From Phycisphaerae bacterium (GTDB lineage Bacteria; Planctomycetota; Phycisphaerae; Sedimentisphaerales; Anaerobacaceae), in contig JAUXAL010000002.1 in NCBI GenBank assembly GCA_030619925.1, positions 1 to 64,000 on the forward strand: a stretch of 64,000 bases of DNA, read 5' to 3'. The notes below the pieces were generated by a model, which worked only from the letters and a program-made list of their open reading frames with translations, was not told the origin of the DNA and made no database searches. Position 1 is the stretch's first letter. Each line of letters begins with the position of its first letter. Positions 6,410-44,388 of this stretch are shown here, in pieces. Position numbers and translations under genes: made by a program.

Positions 6410-6621
6410 CATTGAATCCGATGACAAATTTTGGCTTTTTTGTAAGACACTATTATTAAAGGGTTTACGAGATGGGAATTTTTGCTGAATCGGTAGATAA
6501 CGGGCTTTCGGGTTGTAGCTTGGTTGTAAGGATTTTCTGGTGAAAATGGGGCCGTTTTTGGAGGTAGTTATGTGCGGCTCGGTGCGCTTCTGGTTGGGTA
6601 GTGGGACTGGCCCGAAAGGCT
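6410..6621 (+). repeat. Dispersed 210-bp repeat, copy 1
   Basis: Begins CATTGAATCC, contains GATAACGGGCTTTCGGGTTG and AAAATGGGGCCGTTTTTGG, and ends near GGGACTGGCCC. The same ordered blocks recur at 9201, 11014, 30940 and 36260. It separates the chimeric fucosidase remnant from a truncated alcohol dehydrogenase. Confidence 0.85.
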
Positions 6622-6654
6622 TTGACAGACAGCAATCTATCTAATCTCAATTCG

Positions 6655-6840
6655 TCATGTCAATAGTCCACACCTTTCAAAGATGGTGAAAATACATTCA
6701 ACTTTGACGCCTGTCATCCCCATGGCAATGACTCGAACCAGGAGATCCTGTGTTCCCGGCTCAGGTATTGGCTGCTCTTTCATAATAAAGGCTCCAGCGT
6801 CTTGTGCTTCGCTGCCACCTTTTGCAACTATCGTTTTCAT
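6655..6840 (-). pseudogene. N-terminal fragment of a zinc-type alcohol dehydrogenase / quinone reductase
   Basis: Starts at ATG 6840 (MKTIVAKGGSEAQDAGAF) and continues MKEQPIPEPGTQDLLVRVIA, the start of the GroES-like domain of MDR-superfamily oxidoreductases. About 50 codons match; the frame then runs into unrelated residues and a stop. The catalytic and cofactor domains are missing. The break lies a few tens of bases from dispersed repeat copy 1. Confidence 0.7.
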
Positions 6841-6864
6841 GGCTTTCTCCATTTAAAATTCTGA

Positions 6865-6987
6865 CTATTTAGGTAATTCACCTTTAACGTGGATTTGTCG
6901 CAGTAGGTGATTGGGAGGAATACGACGTTCCAAAGACACATCGTAATAGAAAAGTTTGCCCTGGCGATCACATTGCTTGCCCATCAT
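6865..6987 (-). pseudogene. N-terminal remnant of an IS1182-like transposase
   Basis: A 40-codon frame beginning MMGKQCDRQGKLFYYDVSLE and continuing RRIPPNHLLRQI. The pattern LFYxxxLExRIPxxHLLR is characteristic of the start of IS1182/IS5-type transposases. The rest of the gene is absent, so the mobile element is dead. Confidence 0.65.
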
Positions 6988-7086
6988 TGTTGGAGTCCCT
7001 TCCTGGCGTGGTTGACAGCAAAAGAGTACCACGTGACCCTATTGATGGCAAGACTTTGGTGGTATTTGGGCAACAACCCGTTGAGG

Positions 7087-7116
7087 GCTGACCCCTTAGA
7101 AATCCAAGGGGTCAGC
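7087..7116 (-). terminator. Strong hairpin 3' of the cupin gene
   Basis: Perfect 11-bp stem GCTGACCCCTT (7087-7097) / AAGGGGTCAGC (7106-7116) with an 8-nt loop, 25 bp past the stop of the minus-strand cupin gene. No U tract follows, so it may be an mRNA-stabilising stem or an end of the nearby IS remnant. Confidence 0.5.
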
Positions 7117-7140
7117 TAATAGGGTTAGTGCTAGAACGAA

Positions 7141-7701
7141 CTACCTGTTCCTGTGCACGTCTGCTTCGAGCATTAGTTTGCGCATGATTTTCGGATCTCG
7201 GCGCTCTTCCTCCGAAAGCGCCCTTCTTCTGAAGTAGTTTCGCTCGTATCCAGCCGGTTCATATATCATCAGCGAATGGACATCCTCATCACCGATAACT
7301 CTGCCGGCGTGCGGAGAGTTGGGCGGAATATACACAAGGTCTCCGGGACCTATCTTCTTGGTTTCACCATTTACGGTCCATTCCATAACACCAGAGATGA
7401 TAAAAAACACCTCACTGTGGAAATGATGGGAATGACCGGGATAACTGGACATTCCTGGTTTAAAGATTTCCCTGACGATGCTGTAGCGACCTTCCGTCTG
7501 CTCAGCCGTGAGCATAAACTCGGAAAGCATAGGACCACGGCGGTACATCTCGGTCGAGCCGGCCTTATGAAAAATATGTCTTCCACCCGATTTGGACTCT
7601 TCAGCTTTCGATTTGGAACCTTCATCTAAAGCGGTAACCGAAATACCCATTCCAAATAGAACTAGACTTAACGCAAAGATTAAAGACGGTTTAATAGCCA
7701 T
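7141..7701 (-). CDS. Secreted cupin-domain protein
   Basis: A protein of 186 residues with a clear Sec signal peptide (about residues 1-25, ending near SVTALD). The cupin fold is shown by the metal-binding first motif PGHSHHFHSEVFFIISG and the second motif GPGDLVYIPPNSPHAGR, with conserved histidines and glutamate. Such single-domain cupins bind a divalent metal and act as isomerases, dioxygenases or sensors; the substrate cannot be told. The ribosome site GAGGAAG precedes ATG 7701. It lies on the same strand as the DUF3795 and MarR genes upstream and may be co-regulated with them, although the gap of about 160 bp allows its own promoter. Confidence 0.88.
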   Translation of the reverse strand: MAIKPSLIFALSLVLFGMGISVTALDEGSKSKAEESKSGGRHIFHKAGSTEMYRRGPMLSEFMLTAEQTEGRYSIVREIFKPGMSSYPGHSHHFHSEVFFIISGVMEWTVNGETKKIGPGDLVYIPPNSPHAGRVIGDEDVHSLMIYEPAGYERNYFRRRALSEEERRDPKIMRKLMLEADVHRNR

Positions 7702-7863
7702 TTCTTCCTCACTTACTTAATTAGGGTTGATCACTGATTTCCTTAGAGACGCCAAACTAAATATGCGATATATCTTCATAATGCTCTTCTCCCTACATGT
7801 AATATATTTTGTTGGTTTCAGTGAACCAGCATTCACCATTGTTGTTCAAAAACTCTTAGAATC

Positions 7864-8418
7864 TTATTCTCCTTTACGGAACCGTTTATAGGCTTGAGCT
7901 TCTTCTTTCAGAGAGTAGATGTCCTTACCACATTTGGGACACATTTCGGTGCGATTGGAGAGGAATTCTCCGCACTTGGGACAGGTCCAGCGTGTCTTTT
8001 GTGCCTTTAACCACTGCTTGTAGTCGAGTCCGGTTAAGGTGTAGCAGTTCATCTCTGCGACCAGGGCAAAGTCCTTGCCGTTGCTATGGAATTTCTTGGT
8101 TTTATCACAGGGGAATGCCTTGCACTCGCCGCAGGACTTGATGCCTTTGGCCGCTGCACAGGCCTTGATGGGGCAATTCTGACAGTGTGGTGCCAACTTA
8201 TTACTCTTGCAGCCCAAACACTTGACCTTTGCTGGATCTGTTTGCGATTTGGACATCATATAGAGCCCACAGGATTCACAGTAAATACCGCAGTAACTGC
8301 CTAGATCTGCCTTGCTTGCCTTTGGGGACTGAGCCTGAGTTAAACCGGTACTGCATCCCAAGGCCACTATGCAGCCCGTACAACTCAACATTTCTCGACG
8401 ATTCAGTTTGTTTGACAT
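7864..8418 (-). CDS. DUF3795 cysteine-rich exported protein with C-terminal zinc ribbon
   Basis: A protein of 184 residues starting at ATG 8418 (MSNKLNRREMLSCTG); the in-frame start at 8442 would place eight residues ahead of the leader. NRREMLSCTGCIVALGC looks like a Tat-type or lipoprotein leader. The body has the DUF3795 pattern YCGIYCESCGLY ... KCLGCKS ... CQNCPIKACA ... CGECKAFPC, implying metal or Fe-S binding by several cysteine pairs. A second zinc ribbon, CPKCGEF ... CPKCGKD, is at the C-terminus. The biological role of this family is unknown. It lies 94 bp downstream of the MarR gene. Confidence 0.85.
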   Translation of the reverse strand: MSNKLNRREMLSCTGCIVALGCSTGLTQAQSPKASKADLGSYCGIYCESCGLYMMSKSQTDPAKVKCLGCKSNKLAPHCQNCPIKACAAAKGIKSCGECKAFPCDKTKKFHSNGKDFALVAEMNCYTLTGLDYKQWLKAQKTRWTCPKCGEFLSNRTEMCPKCGKDIYSLKEEAQAYKRFRKGE

Positions 8419-8512
8419 GAAAATACTCCTTTGACTATCCATTCAATATCTTCTTGTTCCGGGATGACGTCCCTTTAATTAATATCCTGGTTTTCGATTA
8501 CGCCTTTAGGAG

Positions 8513-8944
8513 TCACCTACACAGGTTCTGTTCTATTTGATTTAACTGTCCGACCAATTCTTCACGATTCTTCTTGGTCATATTTCCATACACCTTATAC
8601 AGGAGAATACTTGAAATCTCGTCAAAGTCTTTACGGAGTTTTCGTCCCTTTGGCGTTAATTCTACATATGTCACTCGGTTGTCAGTTTCACAGGGGGATT
8701 TTCGTATGTATCCATGTTTTTCGAGTGTGTTAATCATGACAGTAACGGTTGACTTTACCCGTCCGATGCTGTCGACAACAGCTTTGATGGGAACAGGCTT
8801 CTTTTGCTGGAACAGGAAGACTAATGCCGCACCATGAGCCGGAACGATTCCTTTGATGGAGCGTTTTCGTAATTCTGCCTCGATCAGGGCATTAGCTGAT
8901 TCCCTGATCCGTGCGATCTGAGCTATGATTCCTTCGGTATTCAT
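8513..8944 (-). CDS. MarR-family transcriptional regulator
   Basis: A protein of 143 residues with the winged helix-turn-helix of MarR proteins: KAVVDSIGRVKSTVTVMIN is the helix-turn-helix, HGYIRKSPCETDNRVTYVEL is the wing, and LTPKGRKLRKDF the following helix. N- and C-terminal helices would form the dimer. It is the first gene of a minus-strand group with the DUF3795 protein and perhaps the cupin, and has a good promoter just upstream, so it probably controls itself and those genes. The ligand is unknown. Confidence 0.92.
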   Translation of the reverse strand: MNTEGIIAQIARIRESANALIEAELRKRSIKGIVPAHGAALVFLFQQKKPVPIKAVVDSIGRVKSTVTVMINTLEKHGYIRKSPCETDNRVTYVELTPKGRKLRKDFDEISSILLYKVYGNMTKKNREELVGQLNQIEQNLCR

Positions 8945-8991
8945 TCGATTATCTTAATTTCTGTTTTAATCAATTGTATGTCCAGTGCTTT

Positions 8992-9020
8992 ATAATAGTT
9001 TGAGGGCGAACTAAAGTCAA
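8992..9020 (-). promoter_or_regulatory. Sigma-70-type promoter of the MarR gene
   Basis: On the minus strand, TTGACT (9020-9015), a 17-nt spacer, then TATTAT (8997-8992), about 48 bp ahead of the start codon. A CAATTG palindrome between promoter and start (8971-8976) could be part of an operator. Confidence 0.7.
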
Positions 9021-9200
9021 GTCAAAAAATGATCATTTTGGGAATTGTTCGAAATATTGGACCTATGGAGGCGTCTGCCTCTCAAAGGCCAGCTTTACTC
9101 GGAGAACGAGTATTTGCCTCAGGTCTTACTCTGCCCTTAATTAAAGCGACACAAGCAACGGTAACCTAGCCTTTTTATCACGAGTGGCACCAAGCTCGGC

Positions 9201-9356
9201 CATTGAATCCTATGCCAAATTTTCACGTTTTCATAAATCGCCGCCACTACTGCACTTATGAGGAGGCTATTTTTGCGAAATTGGCAGATAACGGGTCTTC
9301 TGGTTGTAGGATGGTTGTAAAGTTTTTCTCGTGAAAATTGAGCCATTTTGGGGGTC
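9201..9356 (+). repeat. Dispersed 210-bp repeat, copy 2 (3' truncated)
   Basis: Shares CATTGAATCC, CCAAATTTTCAC, GGCAGATAACGGG, GGTTGTAGGATGGTTGTA and GAGCCATTTTGGGGG with the other copies; the last 50 bp or so are missing. It lies between the MarR group and the prepilin-like gene. Confidence 0.83.
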
Positions 9357-9528
9357 GACAGTAGCATGTAAGCCGATTTTGAGATTAGCACCCCCATACA
9401 CGCGCATGGGGGTGGGTTTACAGTGGTGGGCTATAGCGTAAAAAAGGGGGTCAGAGGAAAACTTTTGGAGTCCCTTAACGACCATCGGTAAGATATGGCA
9501 ATCCGTCTTAATGCAGCAGTGGTTTTTC

Positions 9529-10365
9529 TCAATAGTCCTTAAATCTCGCCAACCAGCCGGTCCCATGATTTTTCCAGTCGGCTGGTGTGATGCCGCCGGC
9601 CTTATTCCATGCGTTGGCCGTGTTGTATCGACGGCTCCACTTAAGCGTGAACAGTTCTTTGAGCCCCACTCTTCTGACAGTATAGTCCACAAAAGTGGCG
9701 TTTATGAATCCATCGTGGCGGTTGATGCAAAAGCGCTGCATTGAATCAGCATCGCCATTCAATCTCTCGCCGTCATAATGGGGGGGTGTATCGGTATCGT
9801 CCGGCCAGCCGCACCAGAACCAGCAATCCAGAAACATCGGTATATTAGAGCCGCCCTTGACGTCAGGACTCTTCCAGAAGAACTCAGCCGGCTTTCCATA
9901 GAGGGTCGGCTGGCCACACACGTAGACCCAGCCGTTTATCCCATAGCTGCCGTACGTACCGGCTGGCCCGTACTTACCGGCTGGCCGCCCGCCGGTCACA
10001 GCCAACCTGCCCCAGGACGTAAACGTGTCCCCGCCCACTATCATGTCGCCGCCCAAAGCTCCTGCTGGATTTTTGATTTTTTTCGCCATCGGGCAGACGC
10101 GTATCTTGGGATCCCGATAGTAGTAGTCGTACAGGACATCTATCCAACGCCCTGAACCGCCCCTGCGTGTGGGAAAGAAGCCGTTGTTGTCGTCGGTGTA
10201 CATTGCAAAGATAGTGCCCCATTCTTTGAGGTGGGCCTGACAAATGACTGTCCTTGCCTGTTTCTTTACGCGCTGCAGCGCCGGCATCAATATTGCCATC
10301 AACAACGCGATGATAGCAATTACCACCAGAAGTTCTATTAAGGTAAAGCCTCTTGATTTATCCAT
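9529..10365 (-). CDS. Prepilin-like secreted protein with N-terminal methylation motif
   Basis: A protein of 278 residues. The N-terminus [20 protein letters not shown] is a type IV prepilin/pseudopilin leader: cleavage after G and methylation of F, then one hydrophobic helix. The globular part has planctomycete features (LPxLxxVKKQAR, a YTDDNNGFFP block, conserved Cys and aromatic residues). A strong ribosome site GGGAGG lies 8 nt before ATG 10365. Such proteins are abundant in planctomycetes and may form surface fibres or pseudopili. No secretion ATPase or peptidase gene is nearby. A second family member is at 36630-37409. Confidence 0.88.
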   Translation of the reverse strand: MDKSRGFTLIELLVVIAIIALLMAILMPALQRVKKQARTVICQAHLKEWGTIFAMYTDDNNGFFPTRRGGSGRWIDVLYDYYYRDPKIRVCPMAKKIKNPAGALGGDMIVGGDTFTSWGRLAVTGGRPAGKYGPAGTYGSYGINGWVYVCGQPTLYGKPAEFFWKSPDVKGGSNIPMFLDCWFWCGWPDDTDTPPHYDGERLNGDADSMQRFCINRHDGFINATFVDYTVRRVGLKELFTLKWSRRYNTANAWNKAGGITPADWKNHGTGWLARFKDY

Positions 10366-10537
10366 AATAAATACCTCCCGCTTCTATCGAAATTCCGCTG
10401 CCTACTTGTTTGAGATGCGCTAGCTGGACTTTCTGTTCCCTTAGCGTCATATTTTCCCACTATCTTAGCGCCGCTTCACTAAAATACATCATACCTTAAA
10501 TCTGCTTTTTCTGCAATGCTAAATCCTGAGAAAAATA

Positions 10538-10930
10538 ATGGGCGGATTTGCCTGGATTAAAGGAGGTGCGCCAGGGCAAGTGATTATATCTCAGACGGCT
10601 GGTACTCGTAGCGAGGGAAGCACATGGCTCGGTACAGATCCATCGGAAGGAAAATTTATGGCCAGTTTGACACATGAAGTGCTCCCACTGAAGTCGGATT
10701 TCGTAATCACAGATGACCAGTGGCACGATATCGGTCTTGTGTATGACGGATCGAGCAAATATCTTTACGTCGATGGTGCAGAGGTGGCAAAAGATACAAA
10801 ATCCTTCTCTATGCTGGAAAGTTCGGATGGCGGACTATATTTGGGTGCCGGAAAACACCTTGATGAAGCGAGTTTCTTCTCCGCCCTTATTGATGACGTT
10901 CGCATTCATAATCGAGCAGTGAGCCCGTAG
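10538..10930 (+). pseudogene. C-terminal part of a LamG (concanavalin-like) domain protein
   Basis: About 130 codons: FAWIKGGAPGQVIISQT, DDQWHDIGLVYDGSSKYLYV, DGGLYLGAGKHLDEASFFSA and LIDDVRIHNRAVSP are the last strands of a LamG domain. There is no signal peptide and no N-terminal half; the ATG at 10538 is internal to the domain and lacks a ribosome site. It is best read as a 5'-deleted gene. Dispersed repeat copy 3 begins 84 bp downstream. Confidence 0.75.
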
Positions 10931-11013
10931 CAATAGCTCTCTGTAGAAACAAACTTAAGGACGGCAGCTTGAGACACTGCTGGCTCTTCTTTGTCTGTGG
11001 CAGGAGGCACGTT

Positions 11014-11218
11014 CATTGAATCCGTCGCTGAATTTTCACTTTTTCATAAACCACTGCAATTAAGGCACTTATGAGATGAGCATTTTTGGGAAATTGGGAG
11101 ATAAGGGGTTGTATGGTTGTAGAATGGTTGTATAGATTTTCTCGTGAGAATGGGGCTATTTTGGCGGTGGCTCGTGAGCGGTCCAGTGCGCTCTGGTTGG
11201 CTGGTGGGACTGGTCCGA
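11014..11218 (+). repeat. Dispersed 210-bp repeat, copy 3
   Basis: Near-complete copy from CATTGAATCCGTCGC to GGTGGGACTGGTCC, including GAAATTGGGAGATAAGGGG, two GGTTGTA units, and the GCGCTCTGGTTGGCTGGTGG block. Confidence 0.87.
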
Positions 11219-11321
11219 TGTCCGCTTGACAAGCGCATGGTGGTCCCATTCGCCCTTGACAACCACAGAACGCGCCACAAGATTGTTCCGCTCACTGTTG
11301 TATTTCTTTTGTGGCTTTCCA

Positions 11322-12896
11322 TCATTTCTTCCTCCGCCGTAATTTTCCAGATTTCTCTCCTCCAGCTACGAACTCATGGGCTCCGCGATCCGTGTCGGCG
11401 TTTCGTGGCAGGGGATTGCCCCAATAGTCCAGACCGCCGTTGTTGGGGAGCGCCAGCCCGCTGTCAATGCACGGCGAATCGGCCCGCAGCTTATACCCGT
11501 CCAATGTATCAATTCCCAGCGCGCCGCTGCCTGGATTCACAAATTTCGGATCCGATGTAAGCTTTCCGGGCCCGCCGGGTTCCCCCTCCGGATGGTGACC
11601 GAAAAAGACATTGTTTGAGAAATGGCGCTTGGCGTTGCGCCAGTTATATGTAGCCGTCGGGCTCATGTTGTAAATGATGTTGTTGTAAAAATAATATGTT
11701 TTGTCCGCGTCCCGCCGCTCGTCGATGATCACGGGCGAGAGATGCTCGGGAACGAATACTACATTGTTGTAGATGTAGCAGCTTGTGTTCGCATAGTTGA
11801 TGCAGAAGATCTTTCCTTTGTCGTTCTGGCTGATGTTGTAGCGGACAATGACATTCGCGTCCGGCTGCGTTGTGCACATCCAGAACAGCCCGTGATTGTT
11901 GTCGTGGCTATAGCTGTACTGAAAAATGCAGCCTGGGCTGTCCAGGTCGGCGTCATACATGCTGCCGTCAAAATCCTGCGAGCGATTCAAATATCCTTCG
12001 TTGTACTGAAACACCGTATCCCGGCTGCTCCGTGAGAACATTGTATTGCCCGTGCCTGTGCGGAACGCCGTGTCCCAACAAACGTTGTGCTCGATCAATC
12101 CCGCGTCCGCCATCCGAATGATCATCGCATTCTTCGCGATATCGTTTATTCTGTTGCCGCGGATGCGCAGCCCCGTTATCCTGCGGCGCTCCCAATTCGG
12201 CCTGGTTGTCGAATTCGACCCCCTCGCGCCGCTATGCGTGAAAATGCCCGTGTTGTCCACCGTCTCAATCCGACACTTTTCGATCAGCACATCATCATAG
12301 CGTGTGTCTTTGAGATCATCCGCCTCGATGAAAACACCGATGCCCCCGGTGTTTTTGGCGGTGATGGACTGGCCGACGATTCCTTTGATGTGGTGAATGT
12401 ACAATCCCTTCAAGTGCACATGCCGGATCAGGCCCGCGTTCGCCGCTGAAATCTTCACGCCCCGCCGGTCTCCTTCTTTCTCTGCGTTGTTGGTGAGTTC
12501 GAGCCGGTTGACCTCCCAGTACGACTGGTTATGCAAGTGCACCACCCCGCGCCCCACGGAGCCCGCCCCGTCGATAACCGGCAACGGCCCCGCTCCAAAA
12601 CGGTCGACGACAATGGGTCGGCCCGCCGCGCCCGAGCCCTTCGGATGCAATTGCCCTTCCCACCGCGAACCCGCCGCGAACAAGATTCGGTCGCCGGGCG
12701 CGAAGGTGGTTTCGTTGACCTTGTCCAGCGAACGCCATGCCTGGTCGGCTTCTTGGCCGCTGCTCGCGTCCGCTCCTCGGGTTGAGTCCACATAGTAGTC
12801 CGCCCCAAACGCCGCCGTGGCCAGTACGGAAAGGAAGAGAACCGACAGCGCCTCGTTGATCCAGTAACGATTTCTAAGTTTTCCACGCACCTTCAT
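11322..12896 (-). CDS. Secreted right-handed parallel beta-helix protein (candidate polysaccharide lyase/hydrolase)
   Basis: A protein of 524 residues from ATG 12896; the in-frame start at 12956 lacks a signal peptide. A signal sequence (SVLFLSVLATAAFGA) is followed by YYVDSTRGADASSGQ, the usual opening of DUF1565-type pectin-lyase folds. Repeated coils such as LRIRGNRINDIAKNAMII, GLIEHNVCWDTAF and VIVRYNISQNDKGKIF show the beta-helix. The C-terminal ADTDRGAHEF is common in these proteins. Polysaccharide lyases (PL6-like) and several hydrolases share this fold; no catalytic set can be assigned. It lies upstream of no other minus-strand gene but directly downstream of a sulfatase (101 bp), suggesting joint use on a sulfated glycan. 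Confidence 0.83.
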   Translation of the reverse strand: MKVRGKLRNRYWINEALSVLFLSVLATAAFGADYYVDSTRGADASSGQEADQAWRSLDKVNETTFAPGDRILFAAGSRWEGQLHPKGSGAAGRPIVVDRFGAGPLPVIDGAGSVGRGVVHLHNQSYWEVNRLELTNNAEKEGDRRGVKISAANAGLIRHVHLKGLYIHHIKGIVGQSITAKNTGGIGVFIEADDLKDTRYDDVLIEKCRIETVDNTGIFTHSGARGSNSTTRPNWERRRITGLRIRGNRINDIAKNAMIIRMADAGLIEHNVCWDTAFRTGTGNTMFSRSSRDTVFQYNEGYLNRSQDFDGSMYDADLDSPGCIFQYSYSHDNNHGLFWMCTTQPDANVIVRYNISQNDKGKIFCINYANTSCYIYNNVVFVPEHLSPVIIDERRDADKTYYFYNNIIYNMSPTATYNWRNAKRHFSNNVFFGHHPEGEPGGPGKLTSDPKFVNPGSGALGIDTLDGYKLRADSPCIDSGLALPNNGGLDYWGNPLPRNADTDRGAHEFVAGGEKSGKLRRRKK

Positions 12897-12996
12897 TCGT
12901 TGCCCTTCTTTTCCGTTTTCAGCTAAGCATTTTTTTTCGAATCCAATGTCAATCACCGCCCAAATCGATCGAGTCCACGTAGGTCATGGTCATCCG

Positions 12997-14424
12997 CTAA
13001 CTGTAGAGTGTGAGCACATCCGAATCGACCGACTCGAGGTAGTCCATCAATTGCCTGTGCAGTTCCTCCGTCTTTTTCGGCATGGCCGCGGCCAGGTCCT
13101 TCGTTTCTTCGAAGTCATCTTTCAGGTTGAAAAGCAGCAGCTTCTTGTCCTCCCGCCAGAATTTTACCAGCTTGTAATCGCCCACGCGGATGGCTGTGTG
13201 TGGATAGCTGCCGCTATAGCGGTGAAACACCAGCCCCGGATTGGGCCGTTTCACGGAGCCCCGCCCTTCATTTTCCAGCAGTCCGCGGAAGCTCCCGCCG
13301 TCAATGTCGCTGGGCAGGGCCTGCCTGTAACCCACGATATCGGCAATCGTCGGCAGAATGTCCCACCCGACCACCGGCACAGTGCAAAACGAGTTTGGTT
13401 TCACGCCTGGGCCGCGCACGATAAACGGCACGCGAACGCCGCCCTCGAACACCACCCACTTGCCGCCGCGTAGCGGATGGTTCCGGCTGAGTTTTTCGTA
13501 GGTCGTGGGATTGGAGAGGTTGCGCGTGGTGTTCGGGGGAATCCATCCTGCCGAGCCGTTGTCCCCCATGTAGATCACATAGGTCGAGTCGGCGATGCCC
13601 AGCGCATCCAGTTTGTCCAGGATTTTCCCGACACCGACGTCCAGATCCTCGGTCATCCCGGCGAAGGCCGGCACGTTGTGCTTTTCCCCCTTCGGCAATT
13701 GCTCGTATTTCTCGAGCGTGGCCCGGCGCGTTTGCATGGTCACGTGTACGGCATAGTGCGATATTTGCACGAAAAATGGACGCTCCTCCCGCGCGCTGCG
13801 CATCATAAAATCGAGCGCGCGGTCCGTGATGCTGAAGATCCGCTTCGGATCCTCCGTCACCGTGTAAAGGCGCCACTTCTCCGATTTGCCGAAGGTGGAC
13901 GTAATGCTGCCCGGCCTGTTGCTCGTGTTGCCATCACCTTCATCGTAGCCTAGGTGCTCGGGTGCCAGCTCAGTACGGTGGTCCCACTTGCCGAAGTGCG
14001 CCGCGGCATACTGCGGGTTGACCGATTTCAAGATCCGCGGTATGGTCGGGCGCGTGTTGCCGACCGGGTATTTCGCGCCAAAGCCCCGGGAGCCCTGGCG
14101 CACGGGCATCTGCCCAAACTGCAGGCTGCGGCGGGTCGGGCAGCACAGCGCGGCCGGCGCATAGCCCTGGCTAAAGCGCATGGCCTCGCGCGCGAAACGC
14201 TCCAGGTTCGGCGTCTGGAAATAGTCGCTCTTGGCGTCGTTCCGCGTGGGGTGCATCTGCGCGGAGGTCGCGGGCCAGCCCTGATCGTCGCTCAGGATAA
14301 ACACGAAATTGGGAGAACTGGTCGCGGCCTGGGCGTTGCCGGGTGCGGCCAGCGCCACCGAGGCGGCAGCCATGCCAACGGTCCGGGCGAGAAAGTTACG
14401 GCGGGAAATTTGCTTCGATTTCAT
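12997..14424 (-). CDS. Arylsulfatase-type sulfatase (formylglycine sulfatase), exported
   Basis: A protein of 475 residues with the leader SRRNFLARTVGMAAASVALA (Tat-like). The metal-binding pair is in FILSDDQGW (D46, D47), and the formylglycine motif is C94-x-P-x-R98 (CCPTR). Downstream blocks YVIYMGDNGSAGW and LRGGKWVVFEGGVRVPFIVR are typical of S1 sulfatases. The cysteine must be oxidised to formylglycine by a maturase, which is not in the window. It removes sulfate esters from a carbohydrate, probably in the periplasm. The beta-helix gene follows and the frameshifted modular surface gene precedes it on the same strand. Confidence 0.95.
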   Translation of the reverse strand: MKSKQISRRNFLARTVGMAAASVALAAPGNAQAATSSPNFVFILSDDQGWPATSAQMHPTRNDAKSDYFQTPNLERFAREAMRFSQGYAPAALCCPTRRSLQFGQMPVRQGSRGFGAKYPVGNTRPTIPRILKSVNPQYAAAHFGKWDHRTELAPEHLGYDEGDGNTSNRPGSITSTFGKSEKWRLYTVTEDPKRIFSITDRALDFMMRSAREERPFFVQISHYAVHVTMQTRRATLEKYEQLPKGEKHNVPAFAGMTEDLDVGVGKILDKLDALGIADSTYVIYMGDNGSAGWIPPNTTRNLSNPTTYEKLSRNHPLRGGKWVVFEGGVRVPFIVRGPGVKPNSFCTVPVVGWDILPTIADIVGYRQALPSDIDGGSFRGLLENEGRGSVKRPNPGLVFHRYSGSYPHTAIRVGDYKLVKFWREDKKLLLFNLKDDFEETKDLAAAMPKKTEELHRQLMDYLESVDSDVLTLYS

Positions 14425-14457
14425 AATTTAATGCCCTTCATAGATGCTGCGGTTATT

Positions 14458-14480
14458 GGCCCCGAACCAGTGCAGATCTG
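14458..14480 (-). repeat. Partial copy of the 3' motif shared by the modular surface-protein genes
   Basis: GGCCCCGAACCAGTGCAGATCTG lies about 40 bp past the stop of the modular gene ending at 14519. The same block follows the hairpins at 37762, 40341 and 60991. Here the first hairpin arm is not preserved. Confidence 0.55.
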
Positions 14481-14518
14481 CCACGTCAACCACACAATTA
14501 ACTTCCGGTTACATCGCC

Positions 14519-30939: not shown

Positions 30940-31133
30940 CATTGAATCCTATGACAAATTTTCACTTTTTTATAAAGCACTGCCGTTAAGGTACTTACGA
31001 GGAGGCTGTTTTTGTTGAATTGGTAGATAAGGGGTTTTCGGGTTGTATATTGGTTGTAGTCGTCAACGCCCGAAAATGGGGCTGTTTTGGGGGCATCTGT
31101 GCGCTCTGGTTGGCTGGTGGGATCGGCCCAAGA
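30940..31133 (+). repeat. Dispersed 210-bp repeat, copy 4
   Basis: Runs from CATTGAATCCTATGAC to GGGATCGGCCC with all internal blocks, including GGTAGATAAGGGGTTTTCGG and AAAATGGGGCTGTTTTGGGG. It lies between the sigma-factor remnant and the plus-strand dipeptidase gene. Confidence 0.87.
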
Positions 31134-36248: not shown

Positions 36249-36259
36249 CACGTAACGTT

Positions 36260-36472
36260 CATTGAATCCGTCGCCAAATTTTGACTTTTTTATAAGGCAC
36301 TGCGATTAAGGCACTTACGAGACGGGTTTTTTTGGAAAATTGGCAGATAACGGGCTTTCGGGTTGTAGACTGGTTGTATTCATAAACTGACGAAAATGGG
36401 GCCATTTTGGGGGCATCTGTGTGGGGCTCAGTGCACTCTGGTTGGCTGGTGGGACTGGTCCAAGAAATTGTG
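36260..36472 (+). repeat. Dispersed 210-bp repeat, copy 5
   Basis: Starts 11 bp past the sulfatase stop with CATTGAATCCGTCGCC and runs to GGGACTGGTCCAAGAAATTG. It contains GGCAGATAACGGGCTTTCGG, AAAATGGGGCCATTTTGGGG and GTTGGCTGGTGGGACTGG. Confidence 0.88.
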
Positions 36473-36494
36473 GAGATGTAGCGGGTTATGAGAA

Positions 36495-36512
36495 GCCCCC
36501 GCGGTGCGGGGC
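36495..36512. other. Short GC-rich hairpin
   Basis: GCCCCCGC, loop GGT, GCGGGGC, lying between repeat copy 5 and the 3' end of the prepilin-like gene. A possible transcription-ending or RNA-stabilising stem, without a U tract on the plus strand. Confidence 0.4.
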
Positions 36513-36629
36513 GGAGGAAAAAGTCAGATTTTGCAGGGCTTGCGGACTAGCGTAATATATTAATTCTCAAATGCCCTTGCTCTCGCACCCAAGCAATCCG
36601 ATTTTGACTCTGTGTCCAAGACGGCGGAC

Positions 36630-37409
36630 TTAGTACTCTTTATGTGGCTTATACTTTACGAGTTTGTCAAAGAACTTCTTCCAGACATACTCTTGACGAC
36701 TGTGGTCCACATGATACGTCTTACCACCTCCAAATTCTTGTATCGCGTCTTGCAAATCCTTCACGAATTCGCTGTGTCCGTCTGTATAGGCAACATTGTA
36801 CCCATCCTTGTGGTGGTATTGCACACCGCGGCGTGGATCGGAAAACATATCCGCCATAAAAGCCATGCCGCCGGAGTCTTTAATGGAGTTCACAGCCCGC
36901 CACCTATCTTCATCCCATAGAGAGCGGTAATGGTAGGTCGTCTGAACCCACCTCTGATTGGGACCCAAATCCTCGGGAATACGCCCGCTGCTCGGCCATC
37001 CTCCGCCCGGATAAGAGGGATCTGGTGGCAGCTTTCCAAACTGAAGCGTCGGGTTGTTGTTGCCCGGGCAATAGAACAGCTTGGGATCGGCTATAAGTCG
37101 ATGATAGAAAAAAAGACCGTGAGCCATGTAGCCCTTGGTTTCGGGGTTGTTTTGACGACCGCTTACCCAGACGGCGTAGCTGCCGGACCCCGGTGAGACT
37201 TCCATATGACAATACGGAAACTGACCCTCATTGTCATTGGAGTAGAGGACGCCAGCATACCCACAGGACTTTAAGTGGGCGGCACAGGCGGCTCGACGAG
37301 CCTGATGTCTGGCCTTCTGCAATGAAGGCATCAGGATAGCCATCAAGAGCGCGATAATGGCGATGACCACCAAAAGCTCTATTAAAGTAAAGCCGTTTCG
37401 TTTGCGCAT
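36630..37409 (-). CDS. Prepilin-like secreted protein with H-X9-DG C-terminal motif
   Basis: A protein of 259 residues from ATG 37409; the open frame extends upstream only into dispersed repeat copy 6 and unrelated sequence. [20 protein letters not shown] is the prepilin leader (processing after G, methylated F). The C-terminal [20 protein letters not shown] carries the His...DG motif common in planctomycete pseudopilin-like proteins. An AGAAGGG ribosome site and an extended -10 promoter lie upstream. It is related to the protein at 9529-10365. Its role is probably a surface or fibre component; no assembly genes are nearby. Confidence 0.88.
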
Positions 37410-37472
37410 GACGTTCTGCCCTTCTCTTTCAAAGAGAGATAATGAGCTTCGCTGGTATGCTTTTCTGCCATA

Positions 37473-37478
37473 ATTATA
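37473..37478 (-). promoter_or_regulatory. Extended -10 promoter element of the prepilin-like gene
   Basis: Minus-strand TGTTATAAT (TGn plus a perfect TATAAT at 37478-37473), about 64 bp ahead of ATG 37409. No good -35 at 17 bp, as is usual for extended -10 promoters. Confidence 0.55.
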
Positions 37479-37558
37479 ACACACTCTGTAAAAGAATGTA
37501 GAAGAAAAACAAAAATAACCAAATTCTATGGCTTGACGAGGGTCGTTCCATATAAGGA

Positions 37559-37660
37559 GAGTTGTAGGCTTCAAGTCGCGAAAATGGGGCCATTTTGGGG
37601 GTGCTTGGTGCACGCGCACCGGGCTTGATAGGCTGGTGAGACTGGTCCAAGAAATTTTGG
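37559..37660 (+). repeat. Dispersed 210-bp repeat, copy 6 (3' half only)
   Basis: GAGTTGTAG, AAAATGGGGCCATTTTGGGG and GGTGAGACTGGTCCAAGAAA match the 3' half of copy 5. The 5' half is missing. It lies upstream of the prepilin-like gene. Confidence 0.75.
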
Positions 37661-37761
37661 TAAGTCTTTTTAACAAGAAGGGGCTGGGCGTTCTGTCTTG
37701 TCTGGGCAAGGCGAGTAGGAAGCATGTGATGGTTCGACCTTAACGCTTATGAAGACAAACA

Positions 37762-37810
37762 GGGCCTATACCGAATCAATCAGTATAAGCCCCAAACTGA
37801 TGCAAATCTG
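37762..37810 (-). terminator. Conserved hairpin plus motif 3' of a modular surface-protein gene
   Basis: GGGCCTATAC (37762-37771) pairs with GTATAAGCCC (37783-37792), then CAAACTGATGCAAATCTG follows. It lies 39-87 bp past the stop at 37849. The same arrangement follows the paralogs ending at 40447 and 61126. It is probably a terminator-like or 3'-UTR structure. Confidence 0.68.
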
Positions 37811-37848
37811 CTGTATCAGCCACGCAGCTAATTGCCGGTTAAATCGGC

Positions 37849-40203
37849 TTACGGCTCTCGAAGCGGATACAAACGAATGTCGTCAAAGTATACTATGCCC
37901 GAACCGCCGGGTGTCAGATTCGTCTGGTCACCAAAGCCAATAGCAAGCTTCGTGACATTCTGCAGGTCCACGCCGAACAATGCAAGGTCGATATTCCACT
38001 CTTGCCATGATGCCTGCTTTATGTCATCAGCATTGCCGCCATATACAACCTTGGAGCCGTTGACCTTCACATACATCTGCTCAGCAGTATTGTTCGGATC
38101 GCCGTGGAACCATAGCGACAATGCTCCAACGCCATGCCTTGTCCAATCCTGCGGTGGGCTCAGCGGCCGCTCCGCTTCTGAATACTTGAGATTGTTGTCG
38201 TAGAAAAATGGCATCGACTGCAGGCCGCTGTGAACGATAACGGTCTCAGCCCAAGGCGCCTGGTCGTGGGCTATCATGGCACCGTTTGTCTGCGTGCCCC
38301 ATCCGTCTATCCACGTATTGAATATCTCGTCGGGCGGATAGTCGTTGTAGTCCTCGAAATCGTCCACAACAAAATACTCGAATGTCGTGAAGTTCCAGAC
38401 ATCGCCATCCAACATTGTAGGCGTCTCAGCCATATTGACCTCGTTGACCTTCCAGTAGTAAGTCGTGCCCAAATCCAGCGATAAGGGACCATGGCGGGTC
38501 TCGATCACCGTAGTAACAGGTGCAGTACCGTCTACCACGGCCTGTTCATCAGAGCCGACATACACATCGTGCTCGGCTGCTTCTCTGCCCGCTCTCCAGC
38601 TAAGCGTCACGTCCACGTCCACATCTGTTGCCCTCGAATCCGGGTAAGGCTCTCTTGCAAAGACCGGTATGTGGAAGAAGCGAACCTCACTGAGGCCATA
38701 TTGGGGCAGCATTCCTCCCCAGTTGCTTTTAGCTGTGAGCTTCACATACTTCGCTGTGAGGCCACCGAAGTCAACAGTGCTATTGTGTGCGTAGTCGGGC
38801 GTGCCCGGCGCCCGGACAAATTCATAGTCACCCAGTACCATCCAGTCGTTGCCGTCAGTCGAATACTCTATGGTAGCATCCTGGACCCCGAAACCTACAA
38901 AAGACTCAACGGAGCTATTATGGTTCCATACCAGCATCTCATACAGTTTATAAACCCTGTCGAACTCATACTGGATCCAGGTTGGCTGCGGCCCGGTTGT
39001 ACTACTGAGCCACATATCTGTAGTTTTTACCGAGTGAAGGTCATTAGCATCCAGTCCTGAGCCGTTGATGGTATTTTCAGGTCCTTCATTTGCGCTGCTG
39101 GAGCTGGAAGCGGTGGCGGCGATATTCTCAGAAGGCATGGGATGAGCGAACAGCTCAGCCGTGAAGCTCCAGACGCTACCTTTGTAGATTGTAAAGTCCG
39201 GCGGGGCGTTCACTTCATCGACACGCCAGTAGTAGGTCTGGCCGAATTGGAGAAGTTCAGCAGGACTATAGCTGTTAGCATCCTGGTTCCGGCTTACCAG
39301 CACACCGAGCGGGTAATCTCTGTCAGCATCGTTGACATCGTCAAAATTAGTGCCGAAATACACATCATGTTTGTCGGCGTACTTGCCCGGCATCCAGCTA
39401 AGGACCACATCCCGAGGCACATCTGTTGTCCCATCAGCAGGGTTCTGCCTAAAAGCAAAGTCACTTTCACCTATCACAAGGCTCATAACCTCGGCTTCTG
39501 AGAGCGCATTGTCGTAGATACGGATATCGTCAATCAGGCCGATGAAACTGTTGGAGAATGATGGATGTGAGACTCCGCCACCAATGCGTACCCGCTGGCC
39601 TCCGGCGTCAGGGCTGTTGTCGAGACTCTTTTTGGCGTCAGGATTGCCATCGATGTACAAGGTCCATCCCTCAGTTTCCGCAAAGCTGTGGCTCTGGACG
39701 AGCGCCACGTGATGCCACTCGCCGTCGTTGACCGTCGCCAAGCTATCTATGCTCGTGACAAAAACGTTGTCATAGCTCACTTTCCCGATGTGCACGTCGT
39801 CGCGGTTCACGCCCAGCGTAGGGGTTTGTTCCATGTCAATGGAGTGATGCCCACTATTTCGCACGTTCGTCAAGATGGTCATTTCCTTGGTGGCGGTTGT
39901 CTTAATCCATACTGATATCGAGATATCAGTATCGCCAAATTCGATCGCTTGGGAGCCAGCAGCCTCAACATAGCTTCGAATCGCGACCCCGCCACTAAAC
40001 TGCAGACATGTACCATACACTCCGTCGTTTGACCATTGCACATCACCGGTGAAAGTGCCGTCATAGTTGTTACCGGAGCTGTCAACTGTGGCTGTCCCTA
40101 AACCCTCATCAAACCTCCAGTGACCCACCAGATCACCTCTCGCACCGGCGGCCAAACCCAGCACAAGAATAAAAGAAACAAAAGAAATCGATTTTTTAGA
40201 CAT
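37849..40203 (-). CDS. Modular surface protein: LamG, FN3-like, discoidin, FN3-like, C-terminal module
   Basis: A protein of 784 residues from ATG 40203, with AAGGAGGG upstream and a signal peptide (SFVSFILVLGLAAGARG). A LamG domain comes first (about 25-245; LVGHWRFDEGLGTATVDSSG to FIGLIDDIRIYDNALSEAEV). An FN3-like repeat follows (NPADGTTDVPRDVVLSWMPG), then a discoidin/F5-8C domain (WLSSTTGPQPTWIQYEFDRV to YGLSEVRFFHIP), a second FN3-like repeat, and the final module after VVDDFEDYNDYPPDEIFNTW, ending VYFDDIRLYPLREP. There is no sorting or PEP-CTERM signal at the C-terminus. LamG and discoidin domains bind glycans, so a surface carbohydrate-binding role is likely. Not recognised as a characterised protein. 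Confidence 0.85.
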   Translation of the reverse strand: MSKKSISFVSFILVLGLAAGARGDLVGHWRFDEGLGTATVDSSGNNYDGTFTGDVQWSNDGVYGTCLQFSGGVAIRSYVEAAGSQAIEFGDTDISISVWIKTTATKEMTILTNVRNSGHHSIDMEQTPTLGVNRDDVHIGKVSYDNVFVTSIDSLATVNDGEWHHVALVQSHSFAETEGWTLYIDGNPDAKKSLDNSPDAGGQRVRIGGGVSHPSFSNSFIGLIDDIRIYDNALSEAEVMSLVIGESDFAFRQNPADGTTDVPRDVVLSWMPGKYADKHDVYFGTNFDDVNDADRDYPLGVLVSRNQDANSYSPAELLQFGQTYYWRVDEVNAPPDFTIYKGSVWSFTAELFAHPMPSENIAATASSSSSANEGPENTINGSGLDANDLHSVKTTDMWLSSTTGPQPTWIQYEFDRVYKLYEMLVWNHNSSVESFVGFGVQDATIEYSTDGNDWMVLGDYEFVRAPGTPDYAHNSTVDFGGLTAKYVKLTAKSNWGGMLPQYGLSEVRFFHIPVFAREPYPDSRATDVDVDVTLSWRAGREAAEHDVYVGSDEQAVVDGTAPVTTVIETRHGPLSLDLGTTYYWKVNEVNMAETPTMLDGDVWNFTTFEYFVVDDFEDYNDYPPDEIFNTWIDGWGTQTNGAMIAHDQAPWAETVIVHSGLQSMPFFYDNNLKYSEAERPLSPPQDWTRHGVGALSLWFHGDPNNTAEQMYVKVNGSKVVYGGNADDIKQASWQEWNIDLALFGVDLQNVTKLAIGFGDQTNLTPGGSGIVYFDDIRLYPLREP

Positions 40204-40340
40204 AATAGCCCTCCTTTTAGAGCCATTGGAACTTGCCGTGCCTTGGCCAGAGGCCATAAGTTACCAATACTTAATTCCGAGGACCGACCTTTTATGCCGA
40301 GCAGCTATGAGACTCTGTCCTGCCGGACACACACTCCAAG

Positions 40341-40390
40341 GGGGCCCGCACCGAATCAATTGGTATGGGCCCCGAACTCATAGGAATCTG
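40341..40390 (-). terminator. Conserved hairpin plus motif 3' of a modular surface-protein gene
   Basis: GGGGCCC (40341-40347) pairs with GGGCCCC (40367-40373), extended by ACC/GGT, around the loop core GAATCAATT. The motif GAACTCATAGGAATCTG follows. It is located 57-106 bp past the stop at 40447. Same family as the elements at 37762 and 60991. Confidence 0.7.
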
Positions 40391-40446
40391 TCAGTGCAAC
40401 GACATAATTATTCGGTCGTTACTCGTTAACAACGTTTACATCCATG

Positions 40447-43400
40447 TCAAAACGGATTGTCAAACGGCTTAATCCTGCCGGCAAGCCACGCTACCTCAGC
40501 ATCAGACAACGCACGCTCGTAGATGCGAACTTCGTCAATCAGACCACTGTACCATCTCTGGGCTGCAGAGTGGCGACGACCTATGGTGACATCATAGCCA
40601 GCTACCACATTTAACGCATCCGGGTCTGTAGTTTTCCTGGTGTCATCCTGGCCGTTAAGGTAAAGTTTAACGTCCGGATATGAGATCGTGGCGTTCTCTT
40701 TTACAGTTACCGCAACGTGGATCCATTCATTGTCAGGCAAAGTATTGTCACCTTGGACATTGCCTCCGCTCTCACAGCGCAATCTGTCTTCGTTAATCCG
40801 GAATTCCACTCTTGAGACCCCGCCGGGGGTGCTGCCCCAGCCCATAATATCACCATTGCCACTGGTATTAACCCACGCAGTGATGCTGAACGCAGGCTGG
40901 ACACTATTCGGGTCATTGGGGTCAGCAATACAGATGCCCTTATAGCCGGTTATCTCTACATAGTCGCCAACACCATCAAGGCTAATGGCCTGGCCGAGCC
41001 TGCCAGCTACAAAATTGGGCTCGCCCATTATAGTGCCGTGGAGGCCGTTGACAGAGCTGTCGTTGGCAGTGCCTTCAAATTCGTAGTGTGCTACAAGAGA
41101 AGCGGTGTCGGGCTCAGTCGGCGTGACCAACTGACGGTCATAGGCATATAGCCGGATATCGTCAAGGTAAATCACTCCCTTACCACCAACTGCTCCGCTA
41201 CGCTCAAGGCCAATACTTAACTCGGTAACATTGCTAAGGTTCACGCTAAAATCTGCCAGGTTAATATTCCACGGCTGCCACGTTGTTCGCGCTAAGTTAG
41301 CGGCTTCGCCATCGTATAGTACCTTAGAGGCGTTGAGCTTTACATACATCTGCTCTGTAATGGCATTGTTCGGATCGCCGCGGAACCATAGCGACAATGA
41401 CTTAATGCCGTGCCTAGTCCAATCCTGTGGTTGGCTCAGCGCCAGCTCTGCCTCTGAATATCTTGCCGTGCTGGAGTTGTCGTAGAACAGCGGCATCGAC
41501 TGACCGCCACTGTGAACGATAGTTTGCTCGGCAAAAGGCGCAGCAGAATAGCCGACGATAGAACCGTTTGCCGGCTGCTCATATCCGTCTATCCACGCGC
41601 TAAATATCCTGTTGCTGTTGGGATCATCGGGGTCAAGGTCGTTATAACTCTCAAAATCGTCCACGACAAGATACTCCTGAGTCGCAAAGCTCCAGATATC
41701 CCCTGCCCAACTGGTGGGCGTTTCGGCCTCGTTGACCTCGTTAATCTTCCAGTAATAAGTCTGGCCTAATTCAAGCTCTCCGGTGTCATAGCTGGTCTCG
41801 GAAACGCTAACAACAGGGGCAGTACCATCTATCACTGCCTGCTGGTCGGTGCTAAGCTGCACTTCGTGCAAAGCTGTCTCTCTTCCTGCTCGCCAGCTAA
41901 GAGTCACATTATCCACGTCCATATCTACCGTCCCGGAACTTGGTATAGGCTGACTTGCCAAAACGGGTACGTAGGAGAAGCGGACCTCACTCAGACCCTT
42001 CTGCGGGGCAACGCCGCCCCAGTTGCTATTGGCAGTGATCTTGACGTATTTCGATACCACACCGCTAAGATCAACCGTGGTATTGACTGCCGAACCAGCC
42101 GTACCGGGAGCCCGGGCAAATTCAAAGTCACCCAGTGCCGTCCACTCGTTGCCGTCAGGCGAATACTCAATGGTAGCATCTTTGACGCCGAAACCGAGAA
42201 CAGGCTCAAGGGAGGTATTATAGTTCCACACCCACATCTCATACAATTTATAAACGTCGTCGAGCTCATACTGGATCCAGGCCGCGTTAGGATCTGCTGC
42301 ACTACTGAGCCACATATCCGTCCCTTCCGCCGAGTGAAGGTCATCAGCATCCAATCCCGAGCCGTTCACGGTATTTTCAGGCCCTTCATCTGGGCTGTTG
42401 GAACTGGAAGCTGTGGCGGTGATATTCTCAGAAGGCAGTGTATAAGCAAATGGCTCGACCGTGAATTGCCAGACCTTGCCTTTATAGACCGTAAAGTCAG
42501 GGGCAGGGCCGACCTCATCGATACGCCAGTAGTAAGTCTGGCCGAATTGGAGAACTTCAGCAGGACTATAGCTGGTAGAATCCTGGTTTTGACTTACGAG
42601 CACACCGAGGGGGTTATCTCTGGTAGCATCGTTGACATCGTCAAAATTGCTGCCGAAATATACGTCGTGTTTATCGATATCCTTGCCCGGTGTCCAGCTA
42701 AGCGCTACATCCCGCTGCACACCTTTTGCCCCGTCGGCTGGCCCCAGGATGGCGGCTTCCGGCAGCATCTCGCCGATATAGACCGTGCAGCGGTCGTAGT
42801 TGGCGGTGCAGCCGTCTTCCTGCGCAAATGCTGAGACATAGCAGTCATTATCGAGCAGGTCACTCAGAAAGGTCTCCGCCAGGCCGGAACCGACCCAGGT
42901 ATTCGATTCGGTAAAGATGGTGGGTGTGCCGCTGGGGTCGTTCAACCCAGTGACTTTGTATGACCAGCCCGTTTGGCTGATAGTGAATTCGGCGGTAAAG
43001 CCGTCGTTCCAAGAACTTGGCTCGTATGGTCGCTGGGTTGAAATGATCGTTCGCGCTATACCTCGGGGGGGATCTCTAAAACGCACCGCTAGCTGGTCAG
43101 TGCCGGCTTGGGCTCCGCTGAAATTCAGGCCGATATGGGGCAGAGTATTGAAGAATACAGTATCCGTCTGTATCATGTAGGTGTTGCCGTTAGCGTGGAC
43201 GTCCGGCCCGATACTGGTGACGACCCACTTGACGGTCAGACCCTCGGTCAAGGCCGCCTCGCTGAGCGGATCGAAGCTGGCGTTACTGACGATGCCGGTA
43301 TTGGCATTATTGGCGCCGAGGGTGCTCACCTCGGCATTAGAGCCGGTCTCGACGGCGGTGCTCTCGGCTGCTCCCAGTGCATTTGTAACGAGCGTGAACC

Positions 43401-43542
43401 CGCCGTTGACCGACGCGGCGTCGCCGATGTCCAAGCCTTCCCCGTTAAAGTCATCGTCGATCAGGATTTGCAACGACCACGCACTACCGGCCAGAGACAA
43501 CACCAAAACAAAAGAAACCAAACAAATCAATTTTCTACACAT
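40447..43542 (-). CDS. Modular surface protein: N-terminal beta domain, FN3-like, discoidin, FN3-like, carbohydrate-binding-like module, LamG
   Basis: A protein of 1031 residues from ATG 43542, with AAGGAGGC upstream and signal peptide ICLVSFVLVLSLAGSAWS. Residues of about 25-265 form a unique beta-rich domain. Then come an FN3-like repeat (VQRDVALSWTPGKDIDKHDV), a discoidin domain (MWLSSAADPNAAWIQYELDD to KGLSEVRFSYVP), another FN3-like repeat, and the shared module from VVDDFESYNDLDPDDPNSNR to IYLDDIRLYAYDRQL. Unlike its paralogs it then adds a C-terminal LamG domain (about 815-1015; LVAHYEFEGTANDSSVNG to LIDEVRIYERALSDAEVAWL). It is the largest of the four paralogs. Likely a surface glycan-binding protein. 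Confidence 0.85.
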   Translation of the reverse strand: MCRKLICLVSFVLVLSLAGSAWSLQILIDDDFNGEGLDIGDAASVNGGFTLVTNALGAAESTAVETGSNAEVSTLGANNANTGIVSNASFDPLSEAALTEGLTVKWVVTSIGPDVHANGNTYMIQTDTVFFNTLPHIGLNFSGAQAGTDQLAVRFRDPPRGIARTIISTQRPYEPSSWNDGFTAEFTISQTGWSYKVTGLNDPSGTPTIFTESNTWVGSGLAETFLSDLLDNDCYVSAFAQEDGCTANYDRCTVYIGEMLPEAAILGPADGAKGVQRDVALSWTPGKDIDKHDVYFGSNFDDVNDATRDNPLGVLVSQNQDSTSYSPAEVLQFGQTYYWRIDEVGPAPDFTVYKGKVWQFTVEPFAYTLPSENITATASSSNSPDEGPENTVNGSGLDADDLHSAEGTDMWLSSAADPNAAWIQYELDDVYKLYEMWVWNYNTSLEPVLGFGVKDATIEYSPDGNEWTALGDFEFARAPGTAGSAVNTTVDLSGVVSKYVKITANSNWGGVAPQKGLSEVRFSYVPVLASQPIPSSGTVDMDVDNVTLSWRAGRETALHEVQLSTDQQAVIDGTAPVVSVSETSYDTGELELGQTYYWKINEVNEAETPTSWAGDIWSFATQEYLVVDDFESYNDLDPDDPNSNRIFSAWIDGYEQPANGSIVGYSAAPFAEQTIVHSGGQSMPLFYDNSSTARYSEAELALSQPQDWTRHGIKSLSLWFRGDPNNAITEQMYVKLNASKVLYDGEAANLARTTWQPWNINLADFSVNLSNVTELSIGLERSGAVGGKGVIYLDDIRLYAYDRQLVTPTEPDTASLVAHYEFEGTANDSSVNGLHGTIMGEPNFVAGRLGQAISLDGVGDYVEITGYKGICIADPNDPNSVQPAFSITAWVNTSGNGDIMGWGSTPGGVSRVEFRINEDRLRCESGGNVQGDNTLPDNEWIHVAVTVKENATISYPDVKLYLNGQDDTRKTTDPDALNVVAGYDVTIGRRHSAAQRWYSGLIDEVRIYERALSDAEVAWLAGRIKPFDNPF

Positions 43543-44347
43543 GATATGCCTCCTTAAAAAAGTTAACATAATTTAGGTTTTGCCTACACAACAAAAGCCT
43601 ACTTGTCCAGGTCGTTTTCAACAAGCACCGAATACAGAAGGCAGAATACAGTATGTACGACACACGCTAATTTTCAATTCCGACTTCTGGCTTCTGACTT
43701 CTTTGATCTTATTTCGAGCCTGTCTCAAACACCCTCAACAAGACAACCGATAAAAACTTGCACCTTTAGTAAATTCCCTGCATGCCCAGGACAACTTTGA
43801 TATGACTTTGCTTAACCTCCTTCCTTACAAAAGCCCAATACGGGCGGTTACTTGAAATGCAAAAATCTTCACTCTCAGGCCCCAGCGACTCCCGTCGCAA
43901 GACGGGGCTGCGGGGCGGCACAAAGCCCCTATACAACTCTGTGCCTCGCATAATAACTCCTCCTCTATCGAAAAACTACAAAGACTTGTCTGACGTCGAC
44001 AGTCAAGATTCCACAGGTTAGCGGGGCAAAATCCGCAAATACGTGCCTACGCAGGCACACGCTTACTCAATTTTATTTATATCAAATTAACCACCTTCTC
44101 GTCAACGAAAATCTCAAAAATTTATGCAAGACGACTCCGACAACCAGCACCCTAACACAGAACGACCATCGTCAAGCTAACGACCGGTTAACAAATAATT
44201 AAGATGTCGTACAAAAGACTCATTCTTAGCTGAAAAAGGACACCTATGAAGAGCTCAAAGTCAAATAGTAAAATGCTCGTTGCCACAAGAGTTTTCTTTG
44301 AGGCATCCTCGTTACGACACATCAGCAAGCCACCAACCGAGAACGGT
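43543..44347. other. About 800 bp without a recognisable gene; contains hairpins
   Basis: No supported coding frame. A stable nested hairpin lies at 43879-43916 (GCCCCAGC ... CCCGTC-GCAA-GACGGG ... GCT ... GGGGC), and a second small one, GTGCCT-ACGC-AGGCAC, near 44044-44060. The region leads away from the modular surface gene; its promoter should lie in the first 100-200 bp but is not obvious. Confidence 0.45.
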
Positions 44348-44388
44348 CATTGAATCCATTATCCAAAAACCTGCATTTTTTCGCCAAA
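44348..44388 (+). repeat. Dispersed 210-bp repeat, short 5' remnant (copy 7)
   Basis: CATTGAATCCATTATCCAAA ... CATTTTTTCGCC corresponds to the first 40 bp or so of the repeat; the rest is absent. Confidence 0.5.

Follow-up and report, generated by a model that had tools for sequence, protein, structure and literature searches.

The repeat designated X here is probably one attachment-site arm of phage-type tyrosine-integrase elements that were inserted repeatedly in one direction. It was identified in a stretch of 64,000 nucleotides (the window) on a 96-kb contig (C129) of a Phycisphaerae draft genome of 4.0 Mb and 141 contigs (G000). The repeat is a DNA site with one sharp end, CATTGAA, which adjoins a half-conserved partner side. 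Its copies are co-oriented along contigs, the core that spans the sharp end recurs ahead of integrase genes, and fragments of the same integrase family lie beside the repeat in divergent orientation.

The five long copies reported in an earlier note on this DNA are real: a whole-genome profile search recovers them at E values of 5e-34 to 1e-47, all on the plus strand, and they have the sharp end in common. Full-length copies, in which X is followed by a second module, Y, occupy positions 6410–6615 (left end CATTGAATCC, preceded by CTCGTC) and 11014–11218 (preceded by CACGTT). The copy at 9201–9356 is X without Y (model positions 1–156; CTCGGC before it), that at 30940–31131 has a shorter Y and stands between two divergent genes (CACGGC before it), and that at 36260–36463, the best match to the profile, begins 12 bases past a sulfatase gene (AACGTT before it). 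Used as a blastn query, this last copy finds 16 places. The partial copy claimed at 37559 is present on the plus strand at 37556–37650, but its 5′ part is missing, and it consists of the end of X, from about model position 105–109, followed by Y. The second claimed partial copy, at 44348–44388, shares only the ten terminal bases CATTGAATCC and the preceding AACGGT with the others, and its body has no profile match; we regard it as a bare core (44342–44357, plus strand) whose body is unlike X or its relative W, and which is preceded by another repeat, U (44241–44331, plus strand). The description of all copies as lying in one orientation holds for X, but not for the X-related family W, a fragment of which (model positions 57–149) lies on the minus strand at 60885–60977.

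The element is modular. X (model positions 1–158) carries the sharp end, and the 3′ part Y (approximately 150–205) also stands without X. Y follows X in the genome of the window and in several others; in some genomes, X is followed on the other strand by the 3′ end of a kinase-TPR-like gene (a label taken from the translation), cut at differing points, and locus L089 has the order X, a scrap of this gene end, and Y. W has CATTGAATCC in common with X, and one W copy (L093, approximately 685–885) runs into the GTTGTA block of X. The third repeat, U, is a neighbour of the other two, located at most 50 bases before X or W at 10 of 21 U places. The copy at 11014 and one copy in genome G035 (L083) are alike for 22 bases past Y (11219–11240, 95% identical) and then diverge.

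A profile built from the sequences of 12 copies (R1) matches 23 places in the draft genome at E ≤ 0.1. Copies with most of X are found on C129, C81, C138, and C94, together approximately 225 kb of the 4.0 Mb, with one shorter X stretch on C79 and one weak stretch each on C4 and C129. Across the 100 genomes searched, R1 matches 44, including that of the window, and 18 of the 51 more complete ones, with 22 matches in G027 and 20 in G035. The X-bearing genomes belong mostly to the same family, with a minority from other families of the order, and the named records carrying the motif are Planctomycetota metagenome-assembled genomes, some labelled Phycisphaerae or Sedimentisphaerales. Carriage by phages or plasmids was rejected, given that viral contigs had no exact match to one conserved pattern and plasmids had no blastn match. 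Most of 77 copies lack a common flank, and the repeat is thus not confined to longer duplicated segments. Within 4-kb flanks of the same 77 copies, no recurrent gene family holds one side and strand; the closest gene called to the left of the repeat lies on the plus strand in 42 of 76 cases, and that to its right on the minus strand in 43 of 72, so that convergent sites are slightly overrepresented according to a crude gene caller. In the open papers, and with the terms searched, we found no account of the repeat itself.

The repeat neither encodes a protein nor resembles a folded RNA. As the earlier note had stated, there is no coding frame: among 67 copies, mean column entropies by phase are 0.952, 0.986, and 0.933, and internal gaps, mostly of a single base, measure 1 or 2 bases in 35 of 40 cases. 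Conservation lacks a period of three, so that the blocks are not debris of a decayed gene, and it is distributed blockwise, where, of 150 columns, 44 fall below 0.5 bits and 29 reach 1.5 bits or more. The suggestion of a structured RNA family is not supported. The copy at 36260 folds no better than its shuffles as RNA (z of +1.39 and +1.21 for the 2 strands), and the same holds for it as DNA (+1.38 and +1.03), indicating no attC-like folded single strand. No Rfam family reached its threshold in the window, and compensatory changes lend no support: the consensus fold of 12 copies reaches −2.2 kcal/mol, and one of its 14 pairs shows a two-sided change. RNAalifold returned an empty structure for the 67 copies on both strands in every alignment window tried, a result about which the control says little, since shuffles were empty too. 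Terminal inverted repeats of at least 9 bases, a feature of miniature inverted-repeat transposable elements (MITEs), were absent from the three copies tested, and no short palindrome with a tag of the REP type was detected in the X copies tested.

The motif GCAACG[G/T]Y is partly kept immediately before the sharp end. In 63 copies, G is found at −3 in 55, G or T at −2 in 61, and C at −4 in 38; in the 51 copies without integrase-like or U-like flanks, G occupies −3 in 44, and element positions 2 and 5–7 are nearly invariant. The combination NNNCG[G/T/A]N plus CATTGAA occurs 53 times, compared with a mean of 5.7 and a maximum of 17 for 60 permuted heptamers, a count that describes rather than tests, as the sequence was mostly fetched for carrying X. 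Inverted half-sites are partial (in 51 copies, CG on the left in 25, on the right in 36, and on both sides in 17). Paired GGTTGTA-like repeats, spaced by 11 bases, are present in 53 of 67 copies and represent putative arm-type sites. To our impression, the right end of Y (ACTGGTCC) may also resemble the partner half of the core.

The draft genome of the window contains three Phage_integrase matches: a Xer-like gene on C101, a C50 match too weak to pass the cut-off, and, on C81, a C-terminal fragment whose start coincides with the sharp end of an X copy. A gap of 22 bases separates a second integrase fragment from the X copy at C138:30193. The Xer-like recombinase was rejected as a partner because C101 has no X match. 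Counting weak and distant matches, the 74-residue fragment finds relatives in 43 of 100 genomes at E ≤ 1e-5, with two matches in G000, and the N-terminal 256 residues of the family in 33 of 100 at E ≤ 1e-8, with none in G000. Thirteen long open frames of the family, spanning 333–367 residues, were observed. Both members that were scanned are scored as phage integrases (phrog_1, 3.6e-51) and reach 30.8 and 34.8 bits against the integron integrase model TIGR02249, the cut-off of which is 265. Full-length genes in two genera (L258 in G055 and L259 in G047) stand downstream of a similar host gene 3′ end (…TWLDxx stop), a possible fixed insertion place. Among the integrase copies of G058, likeness ceases at the stop codon, which our best model does not predict. 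A second type of tyrosine recombinase is encoded at L102 (6712–7299, plus strand), approximately 530 bases from X, and is followed by a gene reading as IS91-like.

In 8 of 14 integrase loci, the best-matching position for the core or its mirror falls between −185 and −173 relative to the gene start, with the sharp end matched near −181; 300 shuffles yield 1.4 such loci on average and never more than 5. The 14 loci are related, the position may be inherited, and the result around −181 is not a strict probability. The G050 locus matches at all 13 specified core bases, and 6 of the 14 loci have no core in this interval. The motif TGTC[T/A]CC is located at −83 to −87 in 10 of the 14. By sequence similarity, the DNA that flanks integrase genes is homologous to W and U: integrase loci are matched by W at 1.2e-22, 2.2e-10, 4.1e-9, and 1.8e-5 and by U at 2e-23 and 7e-9, and locus L235 has the order W, U, integrase end. 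X itself matches just two such loci, the C81 fragment and, weakly (0.0014), a locus that includes the start of an integrase. Six fetched stretches contain an integrase together with X or W; in each of them, the integrase and the closest X or W are on opposite strands, with the integrase on the core side, and in five the distance is at most 170 bases. Three of the six are from G058, which was fetched for its integrase. The same arrangement fits contig C273 of G013 at 8 kb and, with W, contig C508 of G012 at 14 kb; contig C168 of G018 has a strong X copy with the integrase on the far side at 35 kb and a weak X-like stretch on the core side. An integrase match, weak ones included, is present in 24 of 44 X-bearing versus 19 of 56 X-less genomes. 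The X-rich genomes G009, G023, G027, G035, and G044 match neither the C-terminal fragment nor the N-terminal queries, except for a 19-residue integrase stretch in G035.

X copies, together with W and U, point the same way along contigs. In fetched stretches, 121 of 130 pairs are co-oriented (X-X 54/54, U-X 38/38, W-X 17/23, U-W 8/10, W-W 3/4, U-U 1/1), where the stretches were chosen by such matches and touching U-X pairs are not independent. All nine discordant pairs involve W, either that at 60885 in the window or that on contig C662 of G012. Among the R1 matches listed, with genomes that consist of joined contigs excluded, at least 21 contigs have two or more matches, 19 are uniform, and 53 of 56 pairs agree; the 3 discordant pairs lie on C240 and C154 of G035. 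Replication-strand bias was rejected as the cause, since orientation is not linked to GC skew (in 45 stretches, the mean is −0.0005 and 21 values are positive), although skew may be weak in these genomes and three discordant pairs in this analysis span joints of 100 N. Four nominally single-contig genomes (G036, G017, G040, and G001; locus L251) are contigs joined by 100 N, and orientation across the joints is meaningless; these joints make the origin and terminus unusable for a test of strand bias.

These observations would be accounted for if CATTGAA were the element half of a crossover core and GCAACG[G/T]Y its partner half, with a core-plus-arms site recombining with a GCAACGGT-type partner and the two GGTTGTA repeats acting as arm-type binding sites. 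The unrecombined order would be X or W on the reverse strand, the core, a leader of approximately 180 bases, and the integrase gene. Recombination at the core would link X to other DNA, and repeated insertions at or beside existing cores would stack one way because the core is asymmetric. Such stacking would leave behind X sites that face one way, separated by accessory genes on either strand, with what remains of the integrase on the core side. Repeated site-specific integration would be expected to produce just these traces: an arm that is constant, a partner half that is degenerate, a remnant of the integrase in divergent orientation, and arrays that point one way. The sites in G000 are probably fossils, because the integrase survives there only as two C-terminal fragments. 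Of the functions proposed for the repeat in the earlier note, that of a substrate for recombination is supported, in the form of a site-specific attachment site. The proposal of a non-autonomous mobile element stands in part: the constant sharp end and the associated integrase family agree with it, but the three copies tested lack inverted repeats of 9 bases or longer, and no clean empty site was found. Among five G012 loci with ten flanks, neither an island with two core ends nor an empty site in a relative was detected; 2 of the 10 flanks have an orthologue in the sister genome G050, both one-sided, with likeness stopping 61 and 53 bases from X. One other break was discarded, its position not being at an X. 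Further points against the attachment-site reading are the loose co-occurrence of integrase and X across genomes, the far-side integrase of contig C168 in G018, the scarcity of matches between X itself and integrase loci, the partial inverted half-sites, and the 6 integrase loci that lack the core.

A less likely explanation is that X is a non-autonomous mobile element of another enzyme, for instance a single-strand HUH-type transposase, whose insertion direction tracks the replication fork, the integrase debris being incidental. The orientation that is maintained over tens of kilobases per contig, the target-like, half-conserved motif adjoining the sharp end, and the existence of X-rich genomes without an integrase all fit this explanation, but the missing GC-skew link, the lack of both hairpin ends and terminal inverted repeats, and the core at integrase leaders together with the homology of W and U to these loci, which it leaves unexplained, argue against it. 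It is improbable that X is an immobile chromosomal binding site for a host protein, kept in many copies by selection. The blocks conserved across genera amid variable intervening bases would suit such a site, but most X copies in G000 are confined to the four contigs mentioned above, X is absent from many relatives, and its partners are exchangeable at a fixed junction. Least credible is that X was left behind by decaying genes of a duplicated kinase-TPR family (again a label from translation), whose 3′ flank it would have formed, for although X adjoins such 3′ ends in G027, G036, and G093 (complete in L094 and variably cut elsewhere), only 9 of 77 copies can be attributed to it by common 3′ flanks, plus two scraps, the window copies carry Y instead, and the sharp end is the opposite end. 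With so few copies, the kinase-TPR gene was also rejected as a carrier. Retrotransposition, considered for the variably cut kinase 3′ ends, was dismissed, as no RVT_1 gene occurs in G000, though one does in 6 of the 10 genomes searched, and as truncation can affect either side of a copy.

Under the preferred reading of X as an attachment-site arm, the resemblance to tyrosine-integrase attachment sites extends to the crossover core, one constant arm, direct-repeat arm sites, and an adjacent integrase reading away from the core. X differs from such sites in its ten to twenty copies per genome, nearly all co-oriented, in its degenerate half-core, in standing mostly without an intact integrase, and in that the two ends of one island were not identified. 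The closest described picture is that of the tandem ssrA islands of Dehalococcoides, where successive islands are bounded by co-oriented direct repeats and have integration genes at one edge, accessory cargo, and integrase-less remnants (PMC3146451). In the Dehalococcoides islands, the recombinase is of the serine type and ssrA is the single fixed target, within 100 kb (PMC3146451), whereas X is associated with a tyrosine integrase family and its many sites are not linked to any one gene. Chromosomal integrons share with X arrays the co-oriented sites, the divergent recombinase, and the accessory genes in between; an integron proper was rejected on the basis of the TIGR02249 scores and the lack of an attC-like fold in the one copy folded, and X arrays further differ in that the intervals between sites reach 20 kb and contain genes on either strand. 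REP elements carrying a GTAG or CGTC tag, which are reported from Planctomycetes as well, are short dispersed intergenic repeats, one end of which bears a tetranucleotide (PMC3733652). X is likewise short, dispersed, and intergenic, but it has 160–205 bases and is neither a palindrome nor a hairpin.

The repeat may serve as a marker of where accessory gene blocks were joined in these little-studied bacteria, the blocks in the window including sulfatases, LamG-type proteins, and others. We consider it a speculative extension, with the odds against it, that the arrays constitute an integron-like gene-stacking platform, unrelated to IntI and attC, in several families of one Planctomycetota order. 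In such a platform, a phage-type integrase would be divergent from co-oriented, arm-bearing sites of 100–200 bases (U, then X or W), and accessory gene blocks would be inserted in one direction. If the arrays are directional by mechanism, they would be a parallel to integrons as a means of accumulating genes, and the core with its arms would provide a signature for mapping such insertions.

Two further features of the window were recorded. A RecQ-type helicase frame on the minus strand (44979–46106) has Helicase_C, zinc-binding, RQC, and HRDC domains, whereas a DEAD domain was not reported for its N-terminus; as the frame ends near the U repeat and the bare core (44241–44357), the gene may be truncated. 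At 47433–47544, there is an array of a 14-base unit (ATCGAGTATCCAGA), with six positions in register, and a text-like repeat of another kind is found inside a frame of L238.
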